A DNA stretch of 64,000 bases from Lacrimispora celerecrescens (lineage in GTDB: Bacteria > Bacillota > Clostridia > Lachnospirales > Lachnospiraceae). A program made the position numbers and the translations under genes. Positions 23,376-42,337 of the stretch are shown piece after piece; the first letter of the stretch is position 1; each line of letters begins with the position of its first letter. The notes beneath the pieces are model-generated. The model searched no databases. It was not told the DNA's origin and saw nothing but the letters and a program-made list of their open reading frames with translations. The DNA is taken from the NCBI RefSeq assembly GCF_000732605.1, contig NZ_JPME01000015.1:62001-126000 (forward strand), read 5' to 3'.

Positions 23376-24551
23376 ATGAAAAAGAGGTTAGCAATGGTGC
23401 TTGCAGCGGCAATGGTATTGTCAACAACTGCATGCGGCAGCAGCGGCACAGCCGCAACAGCTGCACCGGCATCCACAGAAGCAAAAACGGAAGCAGCTAA
23501 GACTGAGGCAACTACAGCGGAGAAGGTTGAAAACGCCCAGTCCACAGGCTCTCTGGCAGGAAAGAAGATCGCAGTTGTGCGAAACCTGGCAGCAGGAGAC
23601 CATACCCAGCAGTTTTTAGACGGCTGTGTATCAGAGGGCAAGAAGTTTGGTTGGACCGTAGACACTTTTGTAACGGACGGCGATGATGCAAAAGCTCAGG
23701 AGACGGTTGCTCAGGTCATTGCAAAGGATTATCAGGGAATTATCGTATCTCACGGACAGCTGTCCTATTCCTATGATATGTTAAAACCTGCCAGAGACAA
23801 AGGCATGGAGGTTGTCACCTTTGATACTATGCCATTTAAGGGCGGCGATGCAAGCGGCGAGCTTCTTTCCGGAGTAACTTCTACCGCTCAGAACGATCAG
23901 GCACTGGCCGAACTTTCCCTTGGCTACATGATGAAAGAGTTTGAAGCAAAGGGCGGAAAGTACCCGATGAAAGTTTTAAAGACCTTCATGGGCCCTGGAA
24001 TCCCTCCGTTAGACAGACGTAACGAAATCTATACCAAGTTAGAAGCAGAGGGAAAGATCCAGACTCTGGAAGTAATCGCACCATCTGATTCAGCCAATGC
24101 CCGCGGCGATATGACCAATAAGACAGCTGCTATTCTTCCAAAATATCCGGAAGGTTCTGTAGATGCCATCTGGGGATGCTACGATGAGCTGGCTAAGGGT
24201 GTGTTACAGGCATTAAACGATGCAGGACGTACCGATATCCCGATGTACACCATTGACGTATCAAACGATGACATTCAGTTAATGGTAAAGAATCCTGATG
24301 TGTGGAAATCTACCGCAGCCGTTGATCCGAAACTGATCGGTATTGTAGATGCCCGTCTTTTAGCTCTTAAATTTATGGGAGAAGAAACACCGGATTACTT
24401 TAATTTAAATGCATGCAACATCGAAACAACCCAGCTCAATGCTCAGACAACCATGAGTGATTTGAGCAGCATCATTGATGGATGGGGCGATGCCGAAGAT
24501 CCTAAGGGCGCTTTGTATACTGATGAGATCAAGAACAAATATGTAAATTAA
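23376..24551 (+). CDS. Ribose-type ABC transporter substrate-binding lipoprotein
   Basis: The 391-residue protein starts with a lipoprotein signal, MKKRLAMVLAAAMVLSTTAC, with the lipid-modified Cys at 20, followed by a low-complexity Ala/Thr/Lys/Glu linker (about 21-60). The mature part is a Peripla_BP_4 sugar-binding fold (IAVVRNLAAGDHTQQFLDGC). ATG 23376 has AAAGGAGG at 7 bp. It feeds the RbsA/RbsC-like ATPase and permease that follow. Because the next enzymes are MtnK- and MtnA-like, the ligand is probably a 5-substituted ribose such as 5-methylthioribose or 5-deoxyribose, an inference from context. Confidence 0.93.
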   Translation: MKKRLAMVLAAAMVLSTTACGSSGTAATAAPASTEAKTEAAKTEATTAEKVENAQSTGSLAGKKIAVVRNLAAGDHTQQFLDGCVSEGKKFGWTVDTFVTDGDDAKAQETVAQVIAKDYQGIIVSHGQLSYSYDMLKPARDKGMEVVTFDTMPFKGGDASGELLSGVTSTAQNDQALAELSLGYMMKEFEAKGGKYPMKVLKTFMGPGIPPLDRRNEIYTKLEAEGKIQTLEVIAPSDSANARGDMTNKTAAILPKYPEGSVDAIWGCYDELAKGVLQALNDAGRTDIPMYTIDVSNDDIQLMVKNPDVWKSTAAVDPKLIGIVDARLLALKFMGEETPDYFNLNACNIETTQLNAQTTMSDLSSIIDGWGDAEDPKGALYTDEIKNKYVN

Positions 24552-24592
24552 AGAAACGCTCTGTATTCATTACATAATAAGGAAGAGATGCC

Positions 24593-26104
24593 ATGACCGA
24601 AGTAAAACTTGAAATGAAAGATATATCCATCGAATTTCCTGGAGTTAAGGCTTTGGATGGAGTTGATTTTGGTCTGAAAAGTGGTACGATTCATGCGCTT
24701 GTGGGTGCCAATGGCGCAGGTAAGTCCACCTTAATGAAAGTGCTTGCCGGTGTCAATACGCATTATACAGGACAAATTTACGTTGGAGGGGAACCGGTGG
24801 AAATCCGGTGCCCCAAAGACGCTAAAAATCTTGGGATAGAAATCGTATTTCAGGAAGTTGACACCGCGCTGATTCCCTATCTGTCCGTGGCTGAGAATGT
24901 AATGTTCAACACGCTGGTCAATAAAATGGGGCGGAAGCAAATCGTGCACTGGAAAGAAATCAGGCAGGCAGCAGAAACGGTATTAAAGAAATTAAATGTA
25001 GATGTGGATATTAATAAACAGGTATCAAGCCTTACACTGGCACAAAAGCAGATGGTTCTCATTGCCAGATGCGTGGCGGAAAAGTGCCGGTTCCTGATTT
25101 TAGATGAGCCGACAGCCCCTCTTTCCAATTCTGAGACATTGGAATTGTTCCGGGTGGTGCGTGAACTGGCGAAAGAGAACGTGGGAGTCGTGTTTATTTC
25201 CCACCGTTTAAGTGAACTTTATGAAATTTGTGAAAATATTACCATTATGAGAGACGGCAAACTGGTGACTGAACTGCCGCTTTCTAGGGAACTGGAAGTG
25301 AATACTCTTGTTGAATATATGTTAGGCCGCAGCTATGAGGATAATTACATCAAGAAAAAGTGCGAGATCGGCGGGCCATTGCTTGAGATAGAAAACCTTT
25401 CGGAAAAGGAAGGGAAAGTAAAAGATATCAACATGACCGTCTGCAAAGGGGAAATTATCGGAGTGGCAGGACTGGTTGGCGCAGGTAAAACAGAGCTTTG
25501 CAAGACGTTGTTTTCTGCTTACCAGCAGTCAGGCGGTACCATGAAGCTTAACGGAAAAGTGATTAAGGCAAAAGGGCCGACCCAGGCTGTGAAACATGGG
25601 CTTGCACTGGTGCCGGAGGAACGGAGAAGAGAAGGCGTTCTGATTACGGACCCGGTTGTATCCAATATTTCCGTTGCTGCCATGGAAAAATATACGAACC
25701 GGCTTTCTGTGGTAAACAAAAAGCGGGAAAAAGAGGACGCCAGAAATATGATACGGGGCCTTGGAATCAAGACTCCGTCAGAGAATCAGGTCGTAGCCCT
25801 GCTGTCCGGCGGAAACCAGCAAAAGGTTGTCGTGGGAAAATGGCTGAACAAGGATTCGGAGGTTTATATTTTTGATGAACCCACCAAAGGAATCGATGTG
25901 GGGGCCAAGCAGGATATGTATGAGCTGATCGAAGGGCTGGCGGCCAAAGGAAAAGGCGTTATTTATGCCACCTGCGAATTCCAGGAAATATTAAGTATCT
26001 GCGATCGCATCTATGTGATGTATGACGGAGAAATCATTAAAGAATTAAATGCAGCAGATACGAACGAAAAAGAACTGCTTTACTATTCGACAGGAGGTAA
26101 ATGA
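24593..26104 (+). CDS. Sugar ABC transporter ATPase with two nucleotide-binding domains (RbsA-like)
   Basis: The 503-residue protein carries two ABC domains. The first has Walker A GANGAGKST (38-46), a degenerate signature SSLTLAQKQ and Walker B LILDEPTAPLS. The second has the shortened Walker A GLVGAGKTE, an intact signature LSGGNQQKV and YIFDEPTKGIDVG. This is the RbsA/XylG/MglA arrangement, where one ATPase subunit serves a homodimeric permease. It powers import of the ligand bound by the upstream lipoprotein. The stop codon overlaps the ribosome site of the permease gene. Confidence 0.96.
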   Translation: MTEVKLEMKDISIEFPGVKALDGVDFGLKSGTIHALVGANGAGKSTLMKVLAGVNTHYTGQIYVGGEPVEIRCPKDAKNLGIEIVFQEVDTALIPYLSVAENVMFNTLVNKMGRKQIVHWKEIRQAAETVLKKLNVDVDINKQVSSLTLAQKQMVLIARCVAEKCRFLILDEPTAPLSNSETLELFRVVRELAKENVGVVFISHRLSELYEICENITIMRDGKLVTELPLSRELEVNTLVEYMLGRSYEDNYIKKKCEIGGPLLEIENLSEKEGKVKDINMTVCKGEIIGVAGLVGAGKTELCKTLFSAYQQSGGTMKLNGKVIKAKGPTQAVKHGLALVPEERRREGVLITDPVVSNISVAAMEKYTNRLSVVNKKREKEDARNMIRGLGIKTPSENQVVALLSGGNQQKVVVGKWLNKDSEVYIFDEPTKGIDVGAKQDMYELIEGLAAKGKGVIYATCEFQEILSICDRIYVMYDGEIIKELNAADTNEKELLYYSTGGK

Positions 26105-26105
26105 T

Positions 26106-27125
26106 ATGTCTGGGGCAGAGAAGGTAAAAAAGAAATTGAACGTTGGGGATTTTGTGACAAAATGGGGTACCATCGCAACGATGCTTATCATGTTCATCCT
26201 GTTTACGTTTGGGAACTGGAGTAGGGATACGGGAGCGAGCATGTTTCTGACCCAGTCTAATATGATCACGATCCTTCGTGCGGTATCCATTACCACCATT
26301 ATCGCAATTGGTCTTACGTTTGCCCTGGCGGTAAACGGCATGGATCTTTCCATTGGAGCTACGGCTCAGTTTGCCAATGTTTTTGTTATGACATGCTTTG
26401 TATGGCACAATATCAATATAGGTGTTTCCATCATACTTACGGTGCTCATTTGCTTAAGCGTTGCGGTCATCAACAGCATTTTGATCGTTAAATTCAGGAT
26501 ACCGGATATGGTTGCGGCACTTTCCGTAATGTTCATGTATCAGGGAGTTTCCATGACCTACTCTAAGGGCGGCGCGATCACCGAGCGCATGACCCGCGCC
26601 GATGGGACCCAGGCTCCCGGCCTTGTTCCTGAAGCCTTCCGGGCATTGGGAAAGGAACCATGGCTGATCATCATCATGATCTGTGTGGTGCTGTTCGCAT
26701 ACTTTTTCTTGAATTATACCAAACACGGCAGATACATGTATGCGGTGGGAGGAAATCCTGAGGCAGCCCAGCTTTCCGGAATTCCGGTGGCAAAGTATAA
26801 GATCCTTGCATACTTTCTTTCAGCTACGTTTGCGTCAATCGGCGGAATCTGTCTGGCGGCCCGTGTGGGAACGGCGCAGATTTCAGCAGGTGATGCGTAC
26901 TTAATGCCATCTGTATGTGCGGCTTATATCGGATTTTCTGTATTGGGAGCCGGAAAAGCCAATGCTTTTGGTACCTTTGCGGGAGCGGTTCTTGTGGGTA
27001 TGCTGGAAAATGGTCTTATCATGATGTCCGTGCCTTATTATGCCATGAACATTATAAAGGGAGCAGTCCTTGCCATTGCCCTTGCCATGACCTATGCAAG
27101 CGGCAAGACAAAAAATGTAAACTAA
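26106..27125 (+). CDS. Sugar ABC transporter permease (RbsC-like)
   Basis: The 339-residue protein has about eight to ten membrane helices and the BPD_transp_2 motifs GMDLSIGATAQF and the GGNPEAAQLSGIPVAKYK cytoplasmic coupling loop. ATG 26106 is placed by AGGAGG at 26092-26097, one base after the ATPase stop. It is the membrane channel of the ribose-type importer. The downstream mtnK gene follows after 33 bp with its own ribosome site. Confidence 0.94.
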   Translation: MSGAEKVKKKLNVGDFVTKWGTIATMLIMFILFTFGNWSRDTGASMFLTQSNMITILRAVSITTIIAIGLTFALAVNGMDLSIGATAQFANVFVMTCFVWHNINIGVSIILTVLICLSVAVINSILIVKFRIPDMVAALSVMFMYQGVSMTYSKGGAITERMTRADGTQAPGLVPEAFRALGKEPWLIIIMICVVLFAYFFLNYTKHGRYMYAVGGNPEAAQLSGIPVAKYKILAYFLSATFASIGGICLAARVGTAQISAGDAYLMPSVCAAYIGFSVLGAGKANAFGTFAGAVLVGMLENGLIMMSVPYYAMNIIKGAVLAIALAMTYASGKTKNVN

Positions 27126-27158
27126 AAACGTTATATTGATCAGGGGAAGGTGACAGAA

Positions 27159-28391
27159 ATGTCTAAATACGACAGTTATTTTTTGATGAAAGCAGAAGAA
27201 GTATCGGATTACGTTCAGGAGAAGCTCTCCTATTTTGATGCGGATGCCAGGCTGGAATGTAAGGAGATCGGAGACGGGAACTTGAATTACGTATTCCGTG
27301 TAAAGGATCTTGCAAACGGGAAAACCATCATTGTAAAGCAGGCAGGAGAAGCGCTTCGTATTTCAGCAGAAATGCATGTTTCCACCGACCGGGGAAGAAT
27401 TGAAGCAAAGATTCTTGGGATCCAGGATTCTTATGCACCGGGACTGGTTCCAAAGGTTTACTTATATGACGGAACCATGTGCGCCATGGTTATGGAGGAT
27501 ATGATCGGTCATACCATGATGCGAACCGGTCTGTTAAAGCATGAGATTTATCCCAAATTTGCGGATCATGTGACCACTTTTATGGTTCATTCCCTTCTAC
27601 GCACAACGGATATTGTCCTGGGACACAAAGAGAAAAAAGAGCTGGTTAAAAGCTTTATCAATCCGGACTTATGTGAGATTTCAGAGGACTTAGTATACAG
27701 CGAGCCCTTTATTGATTACAACAACAGGAACAATGTATTTCCGCCCAATGCGGATTTTGTTAAGAAGGAACTGTACGAGGATCAGGCCTTGCATCTGGAA
27801 GCTGCCAAGTTAAAATTTGAGTTCATGAACAATGCCCAGTCTCTGATCCATGGGGATTTACATACTGGCTCTGTATTTATCAATAAAGAGCACACTTACA
27901 TCTTTGATCCGGAATTCGCCTTCTTCGGGCCCATGGGCTATGATATCGGCAACGTCATTGCAAATATGTTTTTTGCATGGTGCAACGGCGACGCTACCAT
28001 AGAAGACGAAGGGGAAAAAGAAGAGTTCTGCGGCTGGTGCTTAAGGACCATTTCCGATATTGTGGACTTATTCATTGAAAAATACAACAAGGTTTTTGAC
28101 GAATACGTAACGGAAACCATGGCAAAAGTCCCGGGATTTAAAGAGTGGTATTTAGAAGGCATCCTTTCCGACACTGCAGGTGTGGCAGGACTTGAATCCA
28201 TCCGCCGTACCGTTGGAATGGCGAATGTGATTGATATCACTACAATTCCTGATGAGGAAAAACGGGCCAGGGCCGAAAAGATCGTCATTACGCTTGCAAA
28301 GAATTATATTATGAACCGTCGCAGCTTCCGGAGCGGAGCGGATTATTTAAATGCAATAAAAGAGGCAATAGGAACGTTTGAAAGCCGGTAA
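27159..28391 (+). CDS. mtnK: S-methyl-5-thioribose kinase (MtnK family)
   Basis: The 410-residue kinase belongs to the APH-like MtnK family, with the GDGNLNYVFRV nucleotide loop, IVKQAGEALR, catalytic IHGDLHTGSVF and metal-binding FDPEFAFFGPMGYDIG. MtnK phosphorylates 5-methylthioribose at C1 with ATP. Homologues also act on 5-deoxyribose, so sequence alone cannot separate the two. ATG 27159 has GGGGAAGG at 8 bp. Placement behind a ribose-type importer, instead of beside an MTA nucleosidase, suggests that it phosphorylates an imported free sugar. Confidence 0.92.
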   Translation: MSKYDSYFLMKAEEVSDYVQEKLSYFDADARLECKEIGDGNLNYVFRVKDLANGKTIIVKQAGEALRISAEMHVSTDRGRIEAKILGIQDSYAPGLVPKVYLYDGTMCAMVMEDMIGHTMMRTGLLKHEIYPKFADHVTTFMVHSLLRTTDIVLGHKEKKELVKSFINPDLCEISEDLVYSEPFIDYNNRNNVFPPNADFVKKELYEDQALHLEAAKLKFEFMNNAQSLIHGDLHTGSVFINKEHTYIFDPEFAFFGPMGYDIGNVIANMFFAWCNGDATIEDEGEKEEFCGWCLRTISDIVDLFIEKYNKVFDEYVTETMAKVPGFKEWYLEGILSDTAGVAGLESIRRTVGMANVIDITTIPDEEKRARAEKIVITLAKNYIMNRRSFRSGADYLNAIKEAIGTFESR

Positions 28392-28429: not shown

Positions 28430-29536
28430 ATGAGCGAAGAAACAAAAAAATCCATCATGGACTATGATACTGTTGCCCTTGATGAAGAGAATCATGCCCT
28501 GGTAATCATAGACCAGACGCAGCTTCCGTATCATACGGAAATCCTTTCCCTGACAAAACAGGAGGATATCTGGAATGCAATCTATCTTCTTCAGGTAAGA
28601 GGGGCGCCTGCCATCGGTGTGGCGGCAGCCATTGGCATCTATCTGGCTGCGAGAGAGATAGGAGCAGATGGTTTTGATGATTTTTATGCAGAATTTCAAA
28701 AGGCAAAGGACTATCTTGATTCCGCACGCCCCACTGCCGTCAATTTGTCATGGGCACTTAAACGGATGGAACAGGTGGTTTTAGAAAACAAAGAGAAAAC
28801 CGTCCCTGAGATCGTTGAGCTTCTCCATAAAGAGGCAATTGAGATCCGGGAAGAAGATATCTGGGTCTGCAAGATGATCGGGGAATATGGCCTGTCTCTT
28901 GTAAAACCGGATGACGGCCTTCTGACCCACTGCAATGCCGGGCAGCTGGCGACGGTAAAATACGGTACTGCAACGGCTCCCATGTACTTAGGACACGAAA
29001 GAGGCTATAACTTCCGCATCTTTTCGGACGAGACAAGACCTCTTCTTCAGGGAGCGAGACTGACCTCTTTCGAATTAAAGGAGTCAGGTCTTGATGTCAC
29101 AGTGATTTGTGACAACATGTCGGCGACCGTCATGAGAAATGGCTGGGTTGATGCCGTATTTGTAGGCTGTGACCGGGTGGCTGCCAACGGAGATACTGCA
29201 AATAAGATCGGAACCTCCATGGTGGCTCTTGCAGCCAAACGCTATGGTGTGCCTATGTATATCTGCGCCCCAACCTCCACCATTGATCTGAACACTCTTA
29301 CCGGTAAGGAGATCCACATTGAGGAACGTCCGGCAGAGGAAGTAGTGGAAATGTGGTATAAAAAACGGATGGCACCGGAAGGTGTAAAGGTATTCAATCC
29401 GGCATTTGATGTGACTGATCATGATTTAATCGCAGGGATCGTAACGGAATACGGGATCGCCAGAGCACCCTATACAGAATCATTAAAAGAAATATTTAAG
29501 AAGAAGGAAGAGGCCCTGAAAGCAAAGAAAATGTAA
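28430..29536 (+). CDS. mtnA: S-methyl-5-thioribose-1-phosphate isomerase (MtnA family)
   Basis: The 368-residue protein matches the MtnA branch of the eIF2B-like family, with VRGAPAIGVAAAIG, THCNAGQLAT (catalytic Cys168) and GCDRVAANGDTANKIGT (catalytic Asp248). It converts the aldose-1-phosphate made by MtnK to the ketose-1-phosphate. The usual next enzymes of the methionine salvage route (MtnB, MtnW/X, MtnD) are absent; instead a class II aldolase gene lies in the co-regulated microcompartment operon. The same chemistry serves 5-deoxyribose disposal. A bidirectional terminator follows. Confidence 0.93.
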   Translation: MSEETKKSIMDYDTVALDEENHALVIIDQTQLPYHTEILSLTKQEDIWNAIYLLQVRGAPAIGVAAAIGIYLAAREIGADGFDDFYAEFQKAKDYLDSARPTAVNLSWALKRMEQVVLENKEKTVPEIVELLHKEAIEIREEDIWVCKMIGEYGLSLVKPDDGLLTHCNAGQLATVKYGTATAPMYLGHERGYNFRIFSDETRPLLQGARLTSFELKESGLDVTVICDNMSATVMRNGWVDAVFVGCDRVAANGDTANKIGTSMVALAAKRYGVPMYICAPTSTIDLNTLTGKEIHIEERPAEEVVEMWYKKRMAPEGVKVFNPAFDVTDHDLIAGIVTEYGIARAPYTESLKEIFKKKEEALKAKKM

Positions 29537-29612: not shown

Positions 29613-30380
29613 TCATGCTTCCGCAGCTTCAAGAAGCTCTACGTTGTTCTTTAAAAGGTATTCTCTCCATTGTTCATTCATCTGCTTGTCGGTGACCAGC
29701 CCTTTGATGGTTTCGAAGCCGGATATCCGGATGAATGAGGTTTTATCGAATTTGGAGTGATCGGCGATCAGATACACATGATTGCTCCGGGTCATCAGTG
29801 TCTGGCGTATGGCAGCAATGGCTTCGTTGGAATCGGTGATCCCGTGTTCCATGGAAACGCTTCTGCAGGACATAAAGGTTTTGTCTAAGTAAAAGGATTC
29901 TAAGTTCCGGATCGCAGTAGTACCTACAAAGGCTTTGTCCCGGGGCGTATAAGAGCCTCCGATGGAGATGAGGCGGATGTCCTCTTTGTCATAAAGTTCA
30001 TTGATGATCAGCAGGGAATTTGTCACCACGGTGAGGCGCATCCCCTGGAGAGATTTTGCCAGCTGCAGGGCCGTGGTAGAGGCATCTAAGAAAATAGAGT
30101 CACCGTTGTGGATGACTGACAGGCATTTTTTTGCGATGATCTGTTTGCTTTCCATATATGCGGTTTCCCGGATCGTTAATTCTACATTATTCTCAACCCC
30201 GTCTTGAATGAATGCACCGCCGTATGTTCTGGTCAGGAATCCGTCATCCTCCAATTGCTTTAAATCCCGCCGAATGGTTTCTTCGGTCACGGAAAAGATC
30301 TTGGAAAGTTCGGTCACCGTAACACTTTTCTTTTCTAAAATAATATCTTTGATCTTGGCTTTCCTTGTCACTGCTAACAT
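29613..30380 (-). CDS. DeoR-family transcriptional repressor
   Basis: The 255-residue regulator has an N-terminal winged helix-turn-helix (SVTVTELSKIFSVTEETIRR then DLKQLEDDGFLTRTYGGA) and a C-terminal sugar-phosphate-sensing domain (DSIFLDASTTALQLAKSL, VTNS, LISIGGSYTPRDKAFVG). DeoR proteins are usually relieved by a phosphorylated sugar intermediate. ATG 30380 was preferred over ATG 30386 because AAAGGA lies 8 bp before the former. It stands between the ABC-mtnK-mtnA operon and the microcompartment operon, and identical A-rich repeats precede both, so it probably controls both in response to a ketose-1-phosphate. Confidence 0.9.
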   Translation of the reverse strand: MLAVTRKAKIKDIILEKKSVTVTELSKIFSVTEETIRRDLKQLEDDGFLTRTYGGAFIQDGVENNVELTIRETAYMESKQIIAKKCLSVIHNGDSIFLDASTTALQLAKSLQGMRLTVVTNSLLIINELYDKEDIRLISIGGSYTPRDKAFVGTTAIRNLESFYLDKTFMSCRSVSMEHGITDSNEAIAAIRQTLMTRSNHVYLIADHSKFDKTSFIRISGFETIKGLVTDKQMNEQWREYLLKNNVELLEAAEA

Positions 30381-30536
30381 AGGCATGTTCCTTTCTTTCT
30401 GGCAATAAAAGTTAATTAAAATAAAATGCAATATAAAACCATAAAAATCATGTGGCATATATGTATATTGTATAATTATTTTGTTTAAATGTAAAGAAGA
30501 AATAGCTGAAATAAAAATAAAACAGTAAAAACAGAA

Positions 30537-30595
30537 ATAAAACAACATAAAACATTGACAAACAGACACAAAAATGGTAAAAATACAGTATAAAA
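30537..30595. promoter_or_regulatory. Promoter and operator of the microcompartment operon (shared repeats)
   Basis: ATAAAACAACATAAAACA (30537-30554) and ATACAGTATAAAA (30583-30595) are identical to elements in front of operon 1. TTGACA at 30555-30560 and TAAAAA at 30578-30583 with 17 bp spacing and an upstream TGG form the likely promoter, embedded in the repeats. The region also serves the divergent regulator gene. Confidence 0.75.
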
Positions 30596-33681: not shown

Positions 33682-33702
33682 ACATCAGCAAAGGTGGGCG
33701 TC

Positions 33703-34062: not shown

Positions 34063-34362
34063 ATGGCAGAGACAGCAGTAAAAAAGGGAATGTTAGCATT
34101 AGGGATGATTGAGACAAGGGGCCTTACCGCATCCATCGAGGCGGCAGATGCCATGTTAAAAGCAGCGGACGTTGAAATGGTTGGAACTGAGAAAATCGGC
34201 TCCGGTTTGGTATCAGTTATGGTTCAGGGAGATGTTGGAGCTGTTAAGGCTGCAGTGGAAGCAGGAGAGGAAGCAGCATCCAGAGTGGGAGAGGTAGTAG
34301 CAGTTCATGTGATCCCAAGACCACATAATTCCATAGGCGGAATCCTTCCGTTCCTTAAATAA
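34063..34362 (+). CDS. BMC-H shell protein, PduA/EutM type (paralogue of 33403)
   Basis: The 99-residue protein repeats the core of the 33403 product almost residue by residue ([44 protein letters not shown]) but has an N-terminal extension ([12 protein letters not shown]) and a different last segment. Its ATG directly follows the previous stop, with AAGGAGG upstream. It would co-assemble in facets. No trimeric (tandem-domain) BMC-T protein is seen in the window, which is unusual for a complete locus unless one lies elsewhere. Confidence 0.94.
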
Positions 34363-35054: not shown

Positions 35055-35311
35055 TATTAGGAACAATAATGGGAACTGTGGTTTCCACGAGAAAATGCAG
35101 GAACCTGGTTGGGTTCAAGCTTCTTTTGGTAGAACCTTTTTATGGGAATAAAAAGGATATTTTTGTGGCGGCCGATACCATTGGTGCAGGGATTGGAGAA
35201 CTGGTATTGGTAACCACGGATAATACGACTCAATATGCGCTGGACCGTTCGGCACCGATTGATGCCTACATTGTGGGCATTGTAGATGCACCGCCGCAGC
35301 CGGGAAGGTAA
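35051..35311 (+). CDS. EutN/CcmL-type pentameric vertex protein
   Basis: The 86-residue beta-barrel protein starts at GTG 35051, overlapping the pduL TGA, and carries the family features MILGTIMGTVVSTRK, GAGIGELVLVTT and the YIVGIVD segment. EutN/CcmL proteins form pentamers that close the vertices of microcompartment shells. Its presence with four BMC-H genes shows that a closed shell is encoded. Confidence 0.95.
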   Translation: MILGTIMGTVVSTRKCRNLVGFKLLLVEPFYGNKKDIFVAADTIGAGIGELVLVTTDNTTQYALDRSAPIDAYIVGIVDAPPQPGR

Positions 35312-35340: not shown

Positions 35341-36465
35341 ATGGAACAGGAAACGCTTAAAGTTTTGGCAGTGGCTGATCCGGCGGTGGAAGGTTATCTG
35401 GATAAAGAACTGGGGGTTTTAGACGGATATGGAGGAATGGTGGATTTTCATATCGTGCCCTGGGCGGATTACTATCCAATGATGATGAAAGCTTTTGCCG
35501 GGGAGGCAGATTATGACATTGTCATGGTTGCAGGCCATTTATGGCTTCGTGACTTTGTAGAAAAAGGATACCTTTCGGAACTGGAACTTAAGGAAGAGGA
35601 CATCCTTCCGGTTATTGCAGAAGAAATGAAGTACAAGGGAAAGGCCTATCTATCTCCCTCTTTCTGTGACGGACATATGATTCTCTACCGTAAAAGCCTG
35701 CTTAATCAGGTGCTTGGTAAGGAGCTTGGAAGCGTCATCACTCCCCAGGAATACATAGAGGCGGCTAAAGCCTACAAGGCGGCCTGCGGGGAACAGGCTG
35801 TGGCCATGAAGGCAGATAAGTCCGAGATATTTACCGATGCCCTTCCCTTCCTTCGCATGTACGGGGGAGAGGCTTATGATCCCGATGGATCTGCGGCCTG
35901 CGGAAAGGAAGATGTGATCAAGGGGCTTCAGTCTTACGTGGAACTGAAAGCCTGTGCAGTTGACGGTACAGAAAACTTCGGCAACGGGGAAATTGCAGAA
36001 GCGATCCGGCAAAAAAGAGCAGCTATGGCAGTTACCTGGAGCGGTCAGATGGGAGAAGTCTTTAAGGAAGGCTGTCTGGAACCGGAAGATCTGGGATTTT
36101 CCACGTTTTCTACGGCCTGGAATGTAACCTGGTCCTTTGGAATCTGTGCAAGCTGCAGGAAAAAAGAAGCTGCAGAGGAATTTCTTTCCTACCTTCGGTC
36201 GCCTGAGGTGGATCAGAAGGTGGGGAGAAAGAGCGGTGCTCCAATAAGAAGAGGAAGCTATCTGGAAGGGGCCGGTGATTGCCCCTGGTTTCCGGTGCAG
36301 CAGAAGATGATGGAACTTGCAAAGCCTCTTCCCAATCTGTCAAAGGCAGGGGAGAAAAACGGAGTCCTTTATGAGAAAATCTTTGAGGCGTTTTCCGGAA
36401 TAAAGACAGCAGAAGAAGCCATGAAGGAAGCCGGGCAAATGATAAATGGCATGACTGAACGGTAA
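35341..36465 (+). CDS. Leaderless extracellular-solute-binding-like protein in the microcompartment operon
   Basis: The 374-residue protein has the two-lobe fold of family 1 ABC solute-binding proteins (ADYDIVMVAGHLWLRDFVEK, YLSPSFCDGHMILYRKSLL, AMAVTWSGQMGEVF, then a YEKIFEAFSG tail). It begins directly at METKL-like mature sequence (MEQETLKVLAVADP): there is no signal peptide, lipobox or membrane segment, so it should stay in the cytoplasm. It is in line with the shell and flavoprotein genes, with GGAGAGG upstream. Its role is unknown: a cytosolic ligand buffer or sensor, or an exported protein missing its leader. Confidence 0.75.
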   Translation: MEQETLKVLAVADPAVEGYLDKELGVLDGYGGMVDFHIVPWADYYPMMMKAFAGEADYDIVMVAGHLWLRDFVEKGYLSELELKEEDILPVIAEEMKYKGKAYLSPSFCDGHMILYRKSLLNQVLGKELGSVITPQEYIEAAKAYKAACGEQAVAMKADKSEIFTDALPFLRMYGGEAYDPDGSAACGKEDVIKGLQSYVELKACAVDGTENFGNGEIAEAIRQKRAAMAVTWSGQMGEVFKEGCLEPEDLGFSTFSTAWNVTWSFGICASCRKKEAAEEFLSYLRSPEVDQKVGRKSGAPIRRGSYLEGAGDCPWFPVQQKMMELAKPLPNLSKAGEKNGVLYEKIFEAFSGIKTAEEAMKEAGQMINGMTER

Positions 36466-36485: not shown

Positions 36486-37820
36486 ATGAAGATTATTATA
36501 ATTGGAGGAGTAGCGGCAGGAATGAGTGCCGCCTCCAAGATCCGCAGGGTCGACCCGGATGCGATAATAACGGTCTATGAAAAGGGAGGTTTTCTCTCTT
36601 ATGGAGCGTGCGGACTTCCCTACTATGTGGGGGACTATAACGATGATTACCGCAAAATGATCGCCCGTTCACAGGAGACCTTTACCAAGATGGGCATAGA
36701 AACCTTCCTCCGCCACGAAGTACTATCCGTTGACGTGGAAAAGAAAGAGGTCCTTGTAAAAAATCTGGAAACCGGTCAGGAATTTACGGATTTCTACGAT
36801 AAATTGATGATAGCGGTGGGAGCATCGGCTGTGGTTCCTCCTTTTCCGGGCAAGGAGCTTATGGGAGTCCATGTATTAAAATCCATGGAAGACGGGATCT
36901 TTTTAAAGGAATATGTAAAAATGCCGGAAATCCGTAATATCGTCATCGTTGGAGGCGGATATATCGGGGTAGAATGTGCGGAGGCGTTTTTAAACCTTGG
37001 AAAGAACGTCCGCATAGTTGAGGCAGCTCCCAGAATTCTTATGCCCTTTGATGAGGAAATCGCCTCCCTGGCCCATGAAGAGCTGGTAAAGTCAGGGGTC
37101 CTTCTTAACACCGGAGAAAAGGTGGAAGGGTTTTATGGAGACGGTCTTTATGTGAAGGGTGTAAAAACAGATAAAGGAACCTATGAGGCGGATTTGGTGA
37201 TCGTTGCTGTGGGGGTCCGTCCTTGTACCGATTTTTTAAAGAATACAGGAATCTCCATGGGCAAAAACGGCGGTCTCATCGTGGACCGGGAAATGAGAAC
37301 CTCTATACCGGATGTGTATGCGGCGGGAGACTGTATTCTTGTCTATCATGAAGTTTTAGAGGAAGACAGCTTCTTGGCTCTCGGAACCGTAGCAAACAAA
37401 TGCGGTAGGATCGCAGGCACCAATATGGCAGGGGGCCATGAATCATTTATAGGCGCCCTTGGGTCTGCTGCAATCAAGGTTTGCGGGCTGGAGCTTGGAC
37501 GTACGGGAATGGGAGAAGGAGATGCCATACGTCTGGGAAAAGATTATAAGACTTTGATTATCCAGGCAAATGACCATCCGGCGTACTATCCGGATCCAAC
37601 ACCCATCACCATTAAGCTGATCTATGAAAAAGGAACAAAAAGACTGCTTGGCGCACAGACCTGCGGACAAAAGGGGGCTGTTTTACGGGCAGATGTATTT
37701 GCTGTGGCAATTCATTGCAAGATGACAACGGCAGAGCTTGGAATGACGGATCTCATATATGCACCTCCCTTTTCCGGTGTTTGGGATGCCATCCAGATTG
37801 CCTGCAATGCAGCAAAATAA
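36486..37820 (+). CDS. FAD-dependent CoA-disulfide-reductase/NADH-oxidase-like protein
   Basis: The 444-residue flavoprotein has an N-terminal FAD Rossmann motif (IIIIGGVAAGMSAASKIRR), the redox Cys42 in LSYGACGLPYY, a second NAD(P)H motif (VIVGGGYIGVECAEA) and the VYAAGDC segment. This is the pattern of CoA-disulfide reductases, NADH oxidases and CoA-persulfide reductases. It could regenerate CoASH from CoA disulfide or oxidise NADH. In a locus that handles CoA and aldehydes a role in CoA redox is attractive; a sulfur-related role would fit a methylthio substrate. Confidence 0.85.
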   Translation: MKIIIIGGVAAGMSAASKIRRVDPDAIITVYEKGGFLSYGACGLPYYVGDYNDDYRKMIARSQETFTKMGIETFLRHEVLSVDVEKKEVLVKNLETGQEFTDFYDKLMIAVGASAVVPPFPGKELMGVHVLKSMEDGIFLKEYVKMPEIRNIVIVGGGYIGVECAEAFLNLGKNVRIVEAAPRILMPFDEEIASLAHEELVKSGVLLNTGEKVEGFYGDGLYVKGVKTDKGTYEADLVIVAVGVRPCTDFLKNTGISMGKNGGLIVDREMRTSIPDVYAAGDCILVYHEVLEEDSFLALGTVANKCGRIAGTNMAGGHESFIGALGSAAIKVCGLELGRTGMGEGDAIRLGKDYKTLIIQANDHPAYYPDPTPITIKLIYEKGTKRLLGAQTCGQKGAVLRADVFAVAIHCKMTTAELGMTDLIYAPPFSGVWDAIQIACNAAK

Positions 37821-37851: not shown

Positions 37852-38664
37852 ATGAGCAAAATAATGACTTTGCAGGAGGCGGCCGCCCGGATTCATGACG
37901 GGGATATCCTGGGTCTTGGCGGCAATGTGCTCCATCGGGCGCCCATGGCAATGGTCAGGGAACTGGTGCGTCAGAATAAAAGGGACTTAAAGCTTGTAAA
38001 GACTGCAGGGGCTATGGATGTTGACATGCTTTGCTTCGGAGGCTGCGTTTCCAGCGTAGATGCCGGCTTTATCAGTTATGAAAGTGAATATTCCCTGGCC
38101 GGACATTACCGAAAGGCTGTTGAAAGCGGAACTGTAAAAGGTAATGAACATGCCTGTTATACCGTGATCTCCGCGCTCCGTGCCGCCAGTTACGGAGTAG
38201 GCTTTATGCCTGTAAAGGGACTTGTGATCAGCGACTTAATAGACGCCAATGATTATTTTATGCGGGTAGAGGATCCGTTTACAAAGGAACCGGTGACAGT
38301 GGTAAAGGCCATAAGGCCGGATGTTGCGGTCATCCATGTACAAGAGGCGGATGAAGAAGGGAACGCCAGGATCACGGGACCATTATTTGAGGATGTTTTA
38401 TTCTCCAGGGCGGCGAAAAGAATCATCCTGACGGCAGAGAATATTGTCCATGGATCTGCATTTACCGGCAGTTCTAAAAAAGCTGATATTCCCCATTTTC
38501 TGGTGGAAGCAGTTGTCAGGGTTCCCAAAGGGGCCGCACCCTGTTCGTGTCCGGGTTCTTATGATATTGACGGAAAAAATTTAAAGGAATTTAAAGGTCT
38601 GAAAGATTTGGGCGGCCTGAATGCCTATTTAAAGGCATTTGAAAAGTCCGATTACAAAGGATAA
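37852..38664 (+). CDS. CoA transferase subunit A (glutaconate/acyl-CoA transferase family)
   Basis: The 270-residue protein resembles subunit A of family I CoA transferases (GctA/IpdA/AtoD group): DGDILGLGGNVLHRAPMAMV, LVKTAGAMDVD, the YGVGFMPVKGL stretch and VHVQEADEEGNARITG. It pairs with the next gene. CoA transferases swap CoA between acids, for example from an acyl-CoA to acetate, and would release the acid product of the pathway. It is 31 bp after the flavoprotein. Confidence 0.85.
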   Translation: MSKIMTLQEAAARIHDGDILGLGGNVLHRAPMAMVRELVRQNKRDLKLVKTAGAMDVDMLCFGGCVSSVDAGFISYESEYSLAGHYRKAVESGTVKGNEHACYTVISALRAASYGVGFMPVKGLVISDLIDANDYFMRVEDPFTKEPVTVVKAIRPDVAVIHVQEADEEGNARITGPLFEDVLFSRAAKRIILTAENIVHGSAFTGSSKKADIPHFLVEAVVRVPKGAAPCSCPGSYDIDGKNLKEFKGLKDLGGLNAYLKAFEKSDYKG

Positions 38665-38675: not shown

Positions 38676-39401
38676 ATGATGGAAGAAAAATACAGAGTCT
38701 GCGATATTATGGTCTGCGCCATGGCCCGCCTCATACCTGACGGCAGCAAGGTGTTTCACGGAGTGTCCTCCCATATGCCCATGATTGCGCTGCTTCTGGC
38801 AAAAGCCCTTCATGCGCCGGGGGCGGTGCATTTGAATATTCCGGGCGGAACAGATCCAGATCCAGTGAGGCTTAAAAAGTATACCAGCGCAGGTCCGGAG
38901 CTTTTGGAACGAGCAACAGCCTATTTTCCTTTAATGGAAGTATTTGACCTGGCTATGAGGGGAGAACTGGATGTGGCATTCTTAAGCGGAATCCAGTTTG
39001 ATTCCCGCGGCAATGTCAATGCGTCGGTTATTGGAGATTACAAAAAACCAAAGGTGAGGATGCCGGGAGGAGCAGGTAGTGCCGTTCTCATTCCAACTGC
39101 GAAAAGGGCAATTCTTTGGAGAACAAAGCATGACAAGCGAACCTTTGTGAACCAGGTGGATTTTGTAACTACCAGGGGAAATGTAGAGCGGATCATCACC
39201 CCTTTATGCATCTTTAAAATGGAACATGGGGAAATGGTTTTAGAAACCATTCACCCGACTTCCAGCTTAGAAGAGGTAGAAGAAAATACCGGATTTCCTA
39301 TAAAATACTCCAATATCGCCTATACGCCCCTTCCAACAAAGGAAGAGTTAAGCGCGCTGAAACGGATCGATCCGGGAGATTTCAGAAATATAGAATTCTA
39401 A
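38676..39401 (+). CDS. CoA transferase subunit B
   Basis: The 241-residue partner subunit has HGVSSHMPMIALLLAKALHA near the start, the DVAFLSGIQFDSRGNVNASV block and a GGAGSAVL motif. The start is ATG 38676 or 38679. No clear glutamate-containing EN(G/S) active-site motif is visible to me, so catalysis may follow the GctB/IpdB-type variation. It is 11 bp downstream of subunit A and forms a two-gene unit with it. Confidence 0.82.
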   Translation: MMEEKYRVCDIMVCAMARLIPDGSKVFHGVSSHMPMIALLLAKALHAPGAVHLNIPGGTDPDPVRLKKYTSAGPELLERATAYFPLMEVFDLAMRGELDVAFLSGIQFDSRGNVNASVIGDYKKPKVRMPGGAGSAVLIPTAKRAILWRTKHDKRTFVNQVDFVTTRGNVERIITPLCIFKMEHGEMVLETIHPTSSLEEVEENTGFPIKYSNIAYTPLPTKEELSALKRIDPGDFRNIEF

Positions 39402-39412: not shown

Positions 39413-40585
39413 ATGGCACTTGAGAGAATCAATGCAGTAGGAACCAGCTTTTTTGGCCGCGGCTCCATCGGACTGCTGCCGGATGAGCTTAAGAAAAGGG
39501 GATTCAAGCGGGGACTTATCGTTACGGACCCCTTCCTGTATAAAAATGGCACCGGAGACAAAGTAGGAGCCTGTCTGCTAAAAGCAGGGGTGGAATACGC
39601 CATTTATTATCTGGTTGAACCAAATCCCACCACCATGGTTGTGGGTGACTGCCTGGAGGCTGCAAGGACTTTGGAAGTGGATCTTTTGGTGGCGGTGGGC
39701 GGCGGCTCTGCCATAGATACTGCAAAGGCCGTCAGCATAGTGATGGCAAACGGCGGTAGGGTAGAGGATTACGAAGGAGTGGACCGTTCCTTAAATCCGG
39801 GAATTCCCATTGTTGCGGTGAATACTACCGCAGGGACCGGTTCTGAGGTCACCTCGTTTTATATCGTGACTGACCCGGTGAGACATTCCAAAATGTGTAT
39901 GGTGGACCCAAACTGCTTGGTCACCATTGCCGTCAATGACGTGGATTTCATGATGAGTATGCCAAAAGCCCTCACCGCTTCCACGGGAATGGATGCCATG
40001 ACCCATGCCATTGAAGCGGCTGTGGCAAAGCGGGCAACTCCATATACGGATAAGGATGCCCTTTGGGCAATGGGTGTGATAGGTACATATCTTCCGGAAG
40101 CGGTGGCTGACGGAAACAATGAAAAAGCCAGAGAGATGATGGCTTATGCGGAATACAGTGCGGGCATGGCATTTTCCAATGCAGGACTTGGCATGGTGCA
40201 TGCCATGGCTCATTCCCTTGGAGGACTTATGAATCTGCCTCACGGCATCTGCAATGCGGTTTTGCTGCCTTTTGTTATGGAATTTAACGGGAGTAAGCCG
40301 GTAGCTGCAGAACGATATAAAAAGGTGGTTGAGGGACTTAAGCTTCCCGGGGCAGCTGCCATGACAGGGGAACAGGCCGTGAAAGAAACGGTGGCCTGTA
40401 TCAGGCGGCTGTCAAAAGAGGTTGGGATTACACAGAGTCTCAAAGAGCTTAAAGTAAATCCTGAGGATTTTAGAGCTTTGGCGGAAGTTGCGCTTAAGGA
40501 TTCCTGTATGGAGGACAATCCTTTTAAACCGACTGTCCAACAGGTCATAGAAGTATATCGGAACGCATATGAATGGCATGACTGA
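39413..40585 (+). CDS. Iron-containing alcohol dehydrogenase (PduQ/EutG-like role)
   Basis: The 390-residue protein is an iron-dependent (type III) alcohol dehydrogenase: GRGSIGLLPDEL, VAVGGGSAIDTAKAV, TTAGTGSEVTSF, the iron ligand region (GMDAMTHAIEAAV, GMVHAMAHSLGG, PHGICNAVLLPF). It interconverts an aldehyde and alcohol with NAD(H). In microcompartments this enzyme reduces part of the aldehyde to alcohol and thereby regenerates NAD+ for the aldehyde dehydrogenase. It starts 11 bp after the CoA transferase. Confidence 0.93.
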   Translation: MALERINAVGTSFFGRGSIGLLPDELKKRGFKRGLIVTDPFLYKNGTGDKVGACLLKAGVEYAIYYLVEPNPTTMVVGDCLEAARTLEVDLLVAVGGGSAIDTAKAVSIVMANGGRVEDYEGVDRSLNPGIPIVAVNTTAGTGSEVTSFYIVTDPVRHSKMCMVDPNCLVTIAVNDVDFMMSMPKALTASTGMDAMTHAIEAAVAKRATPYTDKDALWAMGVIGTYLPEAVADGNNEKAREMMAYAEYSAGMAFSNAGLGMVHAMAHSLGGLMNLPHGICNAVLLPFVMEFNGSKPVAAERYKKVVEGLKLPGAAAMTGEQAVKETVACIRRLSKEVGITQSLKELKVNPEDFRALAEVALKDSCMEDNPFKPTVQQVIEVYRNAYEWHD

Positions 40586-40618: not shown

Positions 40619-41632
40619 ATGAAAAAACTGATTAATGTACCGGAAAATTATGTAAATGAAATGCTGGAGGGAATTTATCTTGCTCATCCGGACTATGTTA
40701 CATACACGGAAGGCGACTTACGCTGCCTGGTCACTTCCAATAAGGTAGAGGGAAAAGTGGGGATTGCAACCGGAGGGGGTTCGGGGCACCTTCCTCTGTT
40801 CTTGGGTTATGTAGGAAAAGGAATGTTAGATGGCTGCTCGGTCGGGGATGTTTTCCAGTCTCCCAGCGCAGAGCAGATGCTTCATGTGACGAAAAGCATT
40901 GATTCCGGAGCAGGTGTTCTTTATATATACGGCAACTATAACGGGGATATCTTTAATTTTGATATGGCTGCGGAGATGGCGGATATGGAAGAGGATATTC
41001 ATGTTGAAAGCGTTGTTGCAGGGGAAGATGTGGCATCTCCCAAGGCAGCTCCCGGAGAGAAGAACACCAGAAGAGGCGTAGCCGGTATCTTTTTTGTATA
41101 TAAGTGCGCCGGAGCAGCTGCTGCAGCCGGGAAGGATTTGCAGGAAGTAAAACGGATCGCAGAGAAAGCGGCTGCTAATGTAAGGACCATGGGAGTGGCA
41201 CTTACCCCTTGTACCGTTCCGAGAGTCGGTCATCCGGGATTTGAGATCGGAGAGGATGAGATGGAAATCGGCATGGGAATCCATGGTGAGTCTGGAATCC
41301 GCCGGGGAAAACTGGAAACGGCAGATGAGATCACATCGGAAATGATGGAGAAAATCCTTGAAGATATTCCATACTGCGCCGGAGATGAGGTTGCGGTTCT
41401 GGTAAACGGACTGGGCGCTACTCCTCTTGACGAGCAGTATATTGTTGCAAGAAAGGTCAATCTGATTCTGGAAGAGAAGGGAATTAAGGTACACCGTTAT
41501 TATGTAGGTGAATATGTAACCTCCATTGAGATGGCAGGCTTATCCATTTCCCTTTTAAAAATGGATGAGGAACTGAAGGGCTATCTGGATGCTCCGGCTG
41601 ATACACCATTCTTTAAGCAGGGAATTGTCTAA
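40619..41632 (+). CDS. dhaK: Dihydroxyacetone kinase, substrate-binding subunit
   Basis: The 337-residue protein is a DhaK: GGGSGHLPLFLGYVGKGMLD (His of the substrate loop), YGNYNGDIFNFDMAAEMA, GVALTPCTVPRVGHPGF and MGIHGESGIRR, which contains the His that covalently binds dihydroxyacetone. It normally works with DhaL and the PTS protein DhaM. A kinase for DHA or a similar ketose would complement an aldolase that makes DHAP, but DHAP is already phosphorylated, so its place in the pathway is unclear. It follows the alcohol dehydrogenase by 33 bp with AAGGAGAAGG upstream. Confidence 0.9.
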   Translation: MKKLINVPENYVNEMLEGIYLAHPDYVTYTEGDLRCLVTSNKVEGKVGIATGGGSGHLPLFLGYVGKGMLDGCSVGDVFQSPSAEQMLHVTKSIDSGAGVLYIYGNYNGDIFNFDMAAEMADMEEDIHVESVVAGEDVASPKAAPGEKNTRRGVAGIFFVYKCAGAAAAAGKDLQEVKRIAEKAAANVRTMGVALTPCTVPRVGHPGFEIGEDEMEIGMGIHGESGIRRGKLETADEITSEMMEKILEDIPYCAGDEVAVLVNGLGATPLDEQYIVARKVNLILEEKGIKVHRYYVGEYVTSIEMAGLSISLLKMDEELKGYLDAPADTPFFKQGIV

Positions 41633-41719
41633 AGATACGATTGGAGCAGATGACATAAGCGCATACCGTTTGTCACGATTAATTATGCCGCCGGCATCAG
41701 CGGCAGAATGGAGGCTGAT

Positions 41720-42337
41720 ATGAACCAGCAGGAACTGATAGCCATGCTTGGCAGAATAAGTAAGATCATGGTGGAAAACCGAAACTACTTAATTGAACTG
41801 GACAGTGTTGTGGGAGACAGTGATCTGGGACTTACGATGACGGATGGATTCCAGGCGGCTTACGACGCGGTTTCAGATGGATCGGAGCCGGACCTGGGCA
41901 AGCTATTGTACAAAGCAGGAAAGACCATGGGAAATAAAGTTCCTTCTACCATGGGGACATTGATGGCAGCAGGACTGATGCGCGCCGGAAAGACGCTGAA
42001 AGGAAAGACAGAATTGTCCGGCACAGATGTTACTGCCTTGTTTGAAGCTTATGAAGCAGGTGTTGCAGATCTTGGTAAAGCGAAATTAGGGGATAAAACC
42101 TTTCTGGATGGATTTCATCCCGGAGTGCAGGTACTAAAAGCTGGAGTGGAAGCCGGAGAGTCCCTTGAGGAAGTCTTTGAGAAAGCAGCATTGGCTGCAT
42201 GGGAAGGCTTTGAACATACCACGACCATGATTGCCGTTCATGGAAGAGCGGCAACAAGAGGAGAAGCGTCCCGCTCCTTAAAAGATCCCGGGGCTGCTGT
42301 AGCGGCACTTATCATGAAGGCGTTTGCAGATAAATAA
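41720..42337 (+). CDS. dhaL: Dihydroxyacetone kinase, nucleotide-binding subunit (variant motif)
   Basis: The 205-residue all-helical protein is the DhaL type. The metal-binding loop reads VVGDSDLGLTM, where GDGDHG is usual, so two Asp remain and the His is Leu. GNKVPSTMGTLMAAG and DGFHPGVQVL match other conserved helices. ATG 41720 is set by GGAGG 5 bp upstream. No dhaM is present, so either a general PTS component or ATP supplies the phosphate; some DhaK/DhaL pairs are ATP-dependent. It is the last gene before a terminator. Confidence 0.85.
   Translation: MNQQELIAMLGRISKIMVENRNYLIELDSVVGDSDLGLTMTDGFQAAYDAVSDGSEPDLGKLLYKAGKTMGNKVPSTMGTLMAAGLMRAGKTLKGKTELSGTDVTALFEAYEAGVADLGKAKLGDKTFLDGFHPGVQVLKAGVEAGESLEEVFEKAALAAWEGFEHTTTMIAVHGRAATRGEASRSLKDPGAAVAALIMKAFADK

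Follow-up and report, generated by a model that had tools for sequence, protein, structure and literature searches.

The question raised by the locus described here is which compound supplies a bacterial microcompartment (BMC) whose shell genes stand next to homologues of the kinase MtnK and the isomerase MtnA. The locus occupies positions 23,376 to 42,337 of a 64,000-nucleotide stretch of the Lacrimispora celerecrescens genome (assembly GCF_000732605.1, contig NZ_JPME01000015.1, positions 62,001 to 126,000), which is referred to throughout as the window, and comprises two operons on the plus strand. The first (23,376-29,536) encodes a ribose-type ABC importer, MtnK and MtnA, and the second (30,654-42,337) runs from a class II aldolase through shell, PduL and alcohol dehydrogenase genes to DhaL. 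We consider it probable (roughly 0.72) that the two operons form one catabolic unit, a dihydroxyacetone phosphate (DHAP) shunt housed in a metabolosome, with 5-deoxyribose as its main, though perhaps not its sole, substrate. Loci and genomes are cited by our own handles (L and G numbers) where they have to be told apart.

An earlier reading made without database searches (the sequence-only reading) had placed the importer, MtnK and MtnA in one operon and a DeoR gene between the two operons; all are present, with MtnK and MtnA above their curated family cut-offs and the regulator on the minus strand (29613-30386), a position that its gene also holds in many relatives. The best solved match of MtnK is the methylthioribose kinase 2olc and that of MtnA is 2yrf, and the HGDLHTGS and DPEF stretches of the former and the CNAG and GDTANKIGT stretches of the latter are retained. 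Each is the single match to its family in this genome (at E 1e-10 for MtnK and E 1e-20 for MtnA), and both are encoded in the window. A DHAP shunt is marked by a class II aldolase gene that clusters with those for an MtnK-family kinase and an isomerase of the MtnA family; this arrangement is found here together with metabolosome shell genes (four PF00936 genes and one PF03319 gene above cut-off). The same reading's account of the second operon stands for the aldolase, the acylating aldehyde dehydrogenase (AldDH), the BMC-H and vertex proteins and the alcohol dehydrogenase, but not for an intact PduL, so that the metabolosome core is present with one frame broken in the assembly. That account also lacked several genes, namely those for a CoA-disulfide-reductase homologue, a CoA-transferase-like pair, a solute-binding-protein-like (SBP-like) protein and DhaK/DhaL.

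Within the genus, the kinase and the aldolase travel together. An aldolase of at least 78% identity is carried by 14 of 24 same-genus relatives, and exactly those 14 carry MtnK at 85% identity or more (partial in G005); in the remaining 10, neither an aldolase of this kind nor, at E 1e-10, any MtnK is found (Fisher test on 14/0/0/10, p 5e-7, a descriptive value in which related genomes are treated as independent). In the 12 loci uncut by a contig end, the order from the importer through DhaK is identical; the ATPase and DhaK frames are split in L032, and L029 and L034 are truncated by contig ends. G030, which belongs to another family of the same order, retains the gene order at 38-83% protein identity, without the SBP-like gene and, in the stretches fetched, without DhaK. 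The recurrence of this gene order in the genus and in G030 argues that it is not due to chance. The SBP-like gene is kept in the shell operon of many relatives. The DhaK/DhaL pair ends the operon in Lacrimispora, and DhaK also follows in L054-L056 and L073; that a dihydroxyacetone kinase should sit in an operon beside a DHAP-forming aldolase is puzzling. Two relatives also encode a second MtnK, 45% identical, beside a 25% identical class II aldolase (G002:C1:4391643-4394865 and G011:C1:3879378-3882411), and this may be a soluble DHAP shunt beside the shelled one.

Outside the genus, loci were retrieved with subunit B of the CoA-transferase-like pair as the query (E 1e-40), a choice made to avoid picking loci by their aldolase. 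A class-wide search matched 1 of 391 genomes, the window's own, and therefore taught us nothing about context. Matches were found in 9 of 148 genomes of the order-level group of G442 (Natronincola), in 11 of 299 of that of G593 (Saliterribacillus) and in 5 of 194 of that of G595, a Clostridiaceae metagenome-assembled genome (MAG). These 25 include the three search centers, themselves reached through the aldolase, and the 22 others were counted. MtnK, MtnA, the aldolase and the shell stand together at 17 of these 22 loci (5, 8 and 4 by group; two of them, G466 and G493, duplicate L058 and L064 and have identical aldolases), with MtnK/MtnA before the shell genes in some loci and after them in others. 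As such, the co-occurrence of MtnK/MtnA, shell and class II aldolase for which a genome search had been proposed does recur in three other order-level groups. A chance neighborhood of MtnK/MtnA and the shell was considered as well, and was rejected on this linkage, retrieved as it was through a different gene. Among the remaining loci, those of G552 and G825 are uninformative because their contigs measure 8.7 and 3.0 kb, and MtnK is encoded on another contig. G499 carries MtnK (TIGR01767, 537.5 bits against a curated cut-off of 275), the CoA-transferase pair and an aldolase of 217 aa that lacks a tail, with MtnA elsewhere and no shell gene in the 40 kb fetched. At the G502 locus the pair and the reductase homologue are present, but shell genes, MtnK and MtnA are not. 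L129 taken with L130 (G499:C1, joined 16144-19972) looks like a shell-less relative of the system.

A broader genome scan with five aldolases (blast annotation) confirmed 91 relatives, of which 80 loci were retained. At least two shell genes are present at 32 of the 80, and the CoA-transferase pair at 20 of these 32. Seventeen of the shell loci have MtnK and the pair in the same piece of DNA (L078 has MtnK alone in its piece, with MtnA further along the contig), three (L047, L060 and L088) have the pair without MtnK/MtnA in the piece, one (L115) has MtnK/MtnA without the pair, and 11 have neither (Fisher test on 17/3/1/11, p 3e-5, descriptive in the same sense). The three apparent exceptions do not lack the kinase: MtnK lies 1.6 kb beyond the piece at L060, on another contig at L088, and on another contig at L047 as well if L047 is the same as G005. 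MtnK or part of it is also found in the genomes of L057 (a short contig) and L080, neither of which has the pair; this search of the loci's genomes covered 19 of 20 loci, L067 being left out. Among the 48 relatives with fewer than two shell genes, many of them on short contigs, MtnK or MtnA accompanies 16 and is absent from 32. Rearranged sets of MtnK/MtnA, aldolase, PduL and AldDH, with few recognized shell genes, occur at L061 (Treponema) and at L070, L072 and L073 (gut or rumen Clostridia); the CoA-transferase pair is present at the latter three and not in the Treponema genome.

The aldolase itself sorts with this company. A phylogeny was built from 107 aldolases, with 14 close copies from the genus or their duplicates omitted; it is midpoint-rooted, and several of its end branches are long. 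In it, a branch with 100/99 support splits 68 rows, including the window's, from 39. The 68-row side holds 39 rows with MtnK/A and shell, 12 with shell only, 11 with MtnK/A only and 6 with neither, and the corresponding counts on the 39-row side are 1, 11, 4 and 23; for these labels a single shell gene and either MtnK or MtnA within the piece suffice, so short contigs may be mislabeled. The 39-row side holds the Planctomycete shell loci, the rhamnulokinase-linked shell loci L036 and L037 and the fucose-operon aldolase of this very genome (L040), and also the MtnK-linked L078 and G499. An AlphaFold (AF2) model of the window's aldolase (20-row alignment, mean pLDDT 81, pTM 0.69) shows a class II core to about residue 230, a low-confidence linker (ten-residue block means 37-56) and a helix at residues 294-317 at the C-terminus, with pLDDT about 85 from residue 301, which we predict to be an encapsulation-type tail. 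Judged by eye, a comparable end is present in all 17 printed loci with at least two shell genes and in L081, whose piece stops soon after, and is absent from the shell-less L075, L077 and G499 and from L040. AldDH and PduL carry, on sequence grounds, short N-terminal segments of encapsulation type, which we take to be of the kind known from microcompartment cargo, and MtnK and MtnA have no obvious tail.

From these observations a pathway may be proposed, each enzyme reaction of which we infer. The importer would take up a free 5-substituted ribose, most likely 5-deoxy-D-ribose, to be phosphorylated in the cytosol by MtnK to the 1-phosphate and isomerized by MtnA to the 1-phospho-ketose; the chemistry of these two families would narrow the ketose to a 5-substituted ribulose-1-phosphate. 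The ketose phosphate would then enter the shell, where the tailed aldolase would yield DHAP and, from 5-deoxyribulose-1-phosphate, acetaldehyde. DHAP would pass to glycolysis, AldDH would convert acetaldehyde to acetyl-CoA, PduL would recycle CoA and give acetyl phosphate for ATP, and the iron-containing alcohol dehydrogenase (Fe-ADH) would turn a second acetaldehyde into ethanol, with NAD+ regained. DeoR would probably repress both operons until a sugar phosphate appears. The core of this scheme, MtnK to MtnA to an aldolase that forms DHAP and an aldehyde within a shell, had been advanced in the sequence-only reading and gains support from the conserved linkage, the aldolase tree and the predicted tail, as well as from a separate fucose operon and from a promoter word that both operons have in common in some members of the genus. 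The features of the locus are collected in Table 1.

Table 1. Features of the locus in window coordinates; family scores, from profile searches of the window proteins, are given as bits/curated cut-off.
Feature	Position	Strand	Evidence or remark
18-base word, copy 1	23204..23221	+	importer/mtnK/mtnA promoter region; candidate operator common to the shell operon
Sugar-type ABC importer, solute-binding protein	23376..24551	+	PF13407 85.3/35.1
Sugar ABC importer, double ATPase	24593..26104	+	AraG/RbsA-like; under the cut-offs of the best 25 families listed
Sugar ABC importer, permease	26106..27125	+	PF02653 116.7/26.8
MtnK/DrdK-type 5-methylthioribose/5-deoxyribose kinase	27150..28391	+	TIGR01767 411.8/275
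MtnA/DrdI-type sugar-1-phosphate isomerase	28430..29536	+	TIGR00512 409.3/279
DeoR-family regulator, between the operons, divergent from the aldolase	29613..30386	-	GlpR/AgaR/FucR-like, under curated cut-offs
18-base word, copy 2	30537..30554	+	DeoR/aldolase intergenic region; identical to copy 1
Class II aldolase, proposed 5-deoxyribulose-1-phosphate aldolase	30654..31610	+	PF00596 166/22.2; model, tree
CoA-acylating aldehyde dehydrogenase (AldDH)	31620..33041	+	NF011927 659/403; best solved match 5jfl, 437 bits
BMC-H-type shell protein 1, divergent	33058..33396	+	PF00936 50.6/24.5
BMC-H shell protein 2	33403..33681	+	PF00936 105.3/24.5
BMC-H-type shell protein 3, divergent	33694..34062	+	PF00936 58.1/24.5
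BMC-H shell protein 4	34063..34362	+	PF00936 105.7/24.5
PduL phosphotransacylase, frame broken near 34574	34399..35054	+	PF06130 135.7/25 over the 3' part
BMC-P vertex protein	35051..35311	+	PF03319 85.6/25
SBP-like protein	35341..36465	+	PF01547 59.7/26; no evident signal peptide, N-terminus judged by eye
CoA-disulfide-reductase homologue	36486..37820	+	NF007123 557/458; under TIGR03385 cut-off (445.8/578.8); best solved match 3cgb
CoA-transferase-like subunit A	37852..38664	+	PF01144 83.9/23; best solved match 5mzw, 142 bits
CoA-transferase-like subunit B	38676..39401	+	PF01144 65.6/23; best solved 5n03/5mzw subunit B, 109/107 bits
Iron-containing alcohol dehydrogenase (Fe-ADH)	39413..40585	+	TIGR02638 405, under lactaldehyde-reductase cut-off 523
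Dihydroxyacetone kinase, DhaK-like subunit	40619..41632	+	TIGR02363 394.9, just under cut-off 406; PF02733 411.9/31.4
Dihydroxyacetone kinase, DhaL-like subunit	41708..42337	+	PF02734 130.5/27; last gene of the proposed operon

The locus is flanked upstream by genes for a GH4 hydrolase, an amidohydrolase and a HAD hydrolase (19655-22914) and downstream by those for a phosphotransferase system (PTS) EIIBCA protein and a GH1 glycosidase (42729-46077). A tRNA scan of the window found none, and Rfam gave 0 matches in the 64 kb at the gathering threshold and therefore no riboswitch lead.

Joint control of the two operons would presumably entail their co-induction. The 18-base word occurs in two identical copies, the sole ones in the 64 kb with up to 2 mismatches allowed, and is the longest word common to both promoter regions, for which 300 dinucleotide shuffles gave a maximum of 14; L021, L022 and L023 carry both copies. 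In a wider promoter-word test (28 loci, 100 shuffles each), the shared words of G732 and G1072 were reached in 3 and 4 of 100 shuffles, and 16 of the 28 loci fail, including L024, L026 and L028 of the genus.

Several observations weigh against the proposed pathway. A shared word matched by no more than 1 in 100 shuffles was found at only 10 of the 28 loci (L021-L023, L025, L027 and its duplicate L042, L033 and its duplicate L046, G803 and L115), which amounts to 8 rows from 6 distinct genomes of the genus and, outside it, 2 of 17, and the words of L033/L046 are of low complexity; support for DeoR co-regulation is therefore confined to some members of the genus. About 47 kb of one contig separate MtnK/MtnA from the shell locus in G624. 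Against solved structures the aldolase scores 87 bits with FucA (4c25) and 78 bits with DrdA (6btd), and in Foldseek, too, 6btd comes second, behind E. coli FucA (1e4c); FucA and DrdA are not told apart by sequence or by fold, and the nearest structure is thus no guide to substrate. The best-scoring models for Fe-ADH are those of lactaldehyde reductase. The PduL frame of this assembly is interrupted near 34,574, where alignment with three relatives shows a gap of one base and a three-frame view shows the break; the gene is open at 218 aa in all 13 fetched genus loci that reach it; a sequencing error and a real lesion are indistinguishable from this assembly. L048-L053 are shell loci with aldolases 68-73% identical to the window's, without MtnK/MtnA in the piece and without the CoA-transferase pair. 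MtnK was not found at E 1e-20 in five of their six genomes, and a search of three of them for MtnA gave, in one, a 45% homologue outside the locus. The front end of L051 (Enterocloster MAG) comprises an ABC importer with psicose-epimerase-like and xylulokinase-like genes, and that of L048 (Lachnospiraceae MAG) a fructose-type PTS and a ketose-bisphosphate-aldolase-like gene, and the same core can therefore serve other ketose-1-phosphates. The aldolases of L048-L053 nest among the MtnK/A and shell rows of the tree, which suggests that the MtnK/A coupling is the older state and was lost there by replacement. Finally, the proposed pathway gives the reductase homologue, the CoA-transferase-like pair, the SBP-like protein and DhaKL no part, and the pair is not universal beside MtnK/MtnA, being absent from L115 and the Treponema locus L061.

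The CoA-transferase-like pair merits separate consideration. When 57 sequences of subunit B are compared, those of the genus among them, L53, N54, I55, G57 and G58 are conserved at 97% or more, and the L-N-I-x-G-G motif is kept with no glutamate conserved there. This motif is the site at which we take the active-site residue of the CoA-transferase family to be located, and the lack of a conserved glutamate makes ordinary CoA transfer doubtful. The nearest solved structure to the pair, 5mzw, is a glutaconate CoA-transferase-family entry that is presumably the AibAB decarboxylase, and the nearest to the reductase homologue, 3cgb, is a pyridine nucleotide-disulfide oxidoreductase. A paper of 2014 likewise doubted its CoA-transferase genes (PMC4149025). 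It is a tentative and rather doubtful suggestion that the pair and the reductase homologue form an unrecognized module acting on the acyl-CoA or thiohemiacetal from the aldehyde. This would be a novel acyl-CoA chemistry that goes with the breakdown of 5-deoxypentoses in shells and out of them (G499, G502), possibly a thioether cleavage that frees methanethiol when the cell consumes methylthioribose.

Such sulfur chemistry is central to the alternative that survives best, in which the same shunt has 5-methylthioribose as its main substrate, methylthioacetaldehyde is the aldehyde, and the reductase homologue and the pair handle sulfur, for example by releasing methanethiol from methylthioacetyl-CoA; we regard this as unlikely. 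The MtnK and MtnA families are named for methylthioribose, and DrdK of Bacillus thuringiensis used both sugars about equally (PMC6079011; this paper and PMC10986504, PMC12632272, PMC8217296, PMC8156839, PMC4207490 and PMC7593272 are cited from parts of their texts). For every one of the 20 shell loci that carry the pair, MtnK is encoded in the same genome (L047 taken as G005), and the lack of MtnK in five of the six genomes of the pair-less L048-L053 agrees with this; a CoA-disulfide redox enzyme would also suit a thioether substrate. Nevertheless, MtnK occurs without the pair at L115, at L061 and, on another contig, in the L080 genome. The later enzymes of methionine salvage are MtnB, MtnW/MtnX or MtnC, and MtnD. 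None of them was found among the genes annotated in 19655-46077, nor any methanethiol-assimilating gene among the annotated window genes (the rest of the genome was not searched in either case), and the aldolase falls under the MtnB cut-off (83/137). Furthermore, the shell-less operon of G502 (G502:C19, L131/L162) has the three genes of the reductase homologue and the pair in another setting: beside them stand acetaldehyde dehydrogenase (402.8/282), 4-hydroxy-2-oxovalerate aldolase (453.8/286), IlvD (813/644), a gluconate-type permease, GntP (310.7/293), and a 2-oxopent-4-enoate-hydratase-like gene. It is possible that this operon encodes a 5-deoxypentonate route in which IlvD would lead from a 5-deoxypentonate to 4-hydroxy-2-oxovalerate and thence to pyruvate and acetaldehyde. 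The gene company of this one locus points to acetaldehyde rather than methylthioacetaldehyde; the evidence that favors 5-deoxyribose over methylthioribose is thin.

It is quite improbable, in our estimation, that MtnK and MtnA instead feed another ketose-1-phosphate (ribulose-1-phosphate, that of another 5-deoxypentose or of a 5-substituted nucleoside sugar), with glycolaldehyde or another aldehyde released. DrdA accepted various aldehydes (PMC6079011), the shell core has other front ends in L048 and L051, and the importer is assigned to no particular sugar by its family scores, but of six other pentoses and hexoses tried with DrdK, methylthioribose alone was used besides 5-deoxyribose (PMC6079011).

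A further possibility concerns fucose and rhamnose. This genome has PF00936 matches on three contigs, among them a choline-type shell locus on contig C29 (L159; CutC 1689/1050) and an ethanolamine-type one on contig C19 of G000 (L160; EutB 693/554). Contig C30 has no PF00936 match and encodes an untailed aldolase together with an L-fucose isomerase (1037/775) and a kinase that resembles rhamnulokinase (471, cut-off 528); fucose in this genome is therefore most likely handled by a route of its own. No fuculose or rhamnulose kinase or isomerase is present among the genes annotated in 19655-46077. That the locus is an ordinary PVM-like or GRM5-type fucose or rhamnose metabolosome, with MtnK/MtnA as neighbors by chance or for another job, as the grouping of Firmicute class II aldolase loci in the catalogues and the slightly higher aldolase score against FucA might suggest, is highly improbable given the persistence of the MtnK/A linkage in loci of the genus, of G030 and of three further order-level groups, the fucose operon on C30 and the place of the rhamnulokinase-adjacent shell aldolases (L036, L037) elsewhere in the tree. 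As a main reading it was rejected on the placement of the aldolase in the tree and on the separate C30 operon.

With 5-deoxyribose retained as the preferred substrate, the significance of the locus may be considered. 5-Deoxyribose is a waste sugar left from the use of S-adenosylmethionine. It has been called a near-universal metabolite (PMC6079011), and E. coli equipped with the DHAP shunt forms acetaldehyde, ethanol and acetate from it anaerobically and shows no fermentative growth on it (PMC10986504). A metabolosome that disproportionates acetaldehyde with a gain of ATP would offer an answer as to how strict anaerobes could live on this sugar. If our reading is true, a shell operon without a substrate since 2014 gains one, and part of the loci presumed to serve fucose or rhamnose need to be re-filed.

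The shell operon is itself known. A description appeared in 2014, where the operon is the orphan 'CoAT BMC' in the genome of Clostridium (Lacrimispora) indolis DSM 755, in a text that found a key enzyme lacking, left the substrate unassigned, and also named saccharolyticum, 'C. stricklandii', Caldalkalibacillus thermarum and Bacillus selenitireducens (PMC4149025). The published operon and that of the window share DeoR, a FucA-like aldolase, PduP, four PF00936 proteins, PduL, EutN, SBP_bac_8, an FAD-dependent dehydrogenase, two CoA-transferases and Fe-ADH, in the order of 29613-40585; the 2014 table differs in being without MtnK/MtnA or an importer. What is new here is thus the coupling of MtnK/MtnA to a known orphan shell operon, and with it a substrate for that operon. 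Our literature search, the scope of which excluded the locus diagrams of the 2021 catalogue, most subscription papers and bioRxiv, found no paper linking MtnK/MtnA chemistry to a microcompartment, and the main texts of the catalogues, in the parts consulted and supplements aside, assign this locus no substrate. Within that scope, the sequence-only reading, which named no described microcompartment with this kinase/isomerase pairing and allowed that a substrate might already be assigned, stands as to the pairing and as to the lack of an assigned substrate, but not as to the shell operon, already in print. In Acetobacterium woodii the pdu shell cluster is followed by a gene for a methylthioribose kinase, which has been called unrelated to BMC function (PMC7593272).

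Other described systems may be compared with the locus. The PVM-like class, compared here by description, comprises Firmicute class II aldolase loci with AldDH and shell genes, most with DeoR, for which a fucose- or rhamnose-like substrate has been thought likely (PMC4207490, PMC8217296, PMC8156839). A tailed class II aldolase with DeoR and shell is found here as well and, being common to both, does not discriminate; the MtnK/MtnA front end differs, as does an aldolase set apart from those of the Planctomycete and rhamnulokinase-linked shell loci. In the SPU metabolosome, too, a sugar phosphate is cleaved within the shell, with acetaldehyde and a C3 phosphate as products, but by way of a DeoC-type aldolase and RpiB acting on deoxyribose phosphate (PMC8217296), in place of the class II aldolase and MtnK/MtnA of the present locus. 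The kinase-isomerase-aldolase chemistry itself is that of DrdK, DrdI and DrdA of B. thuringiensis with 5-deoxyribose (PMC6079011) and of MtnK, MtnA and Ald2 in the DHAP shunt of E. coli (PMC10986504, PMC12632272), for whose genes 5-deoxyribose is an inducer and a protein of the DeoR family the repressor (PMC12632272). The present locus shares with these systems a clustered kinase, isomerase and class II aldolase, a DeoR-family regulator (in control in E. coli) and the sugar transporter genes of some clusters. The published accounts, in the parts cited, describe no shell genes, and the word 'microcompartment' does not occur in PMC6079011 or in PMC10986504, whereas here the aldolase is tailed and stands beside genes for a shell, AldDH, PduL and an alcohol dehydrogenase.

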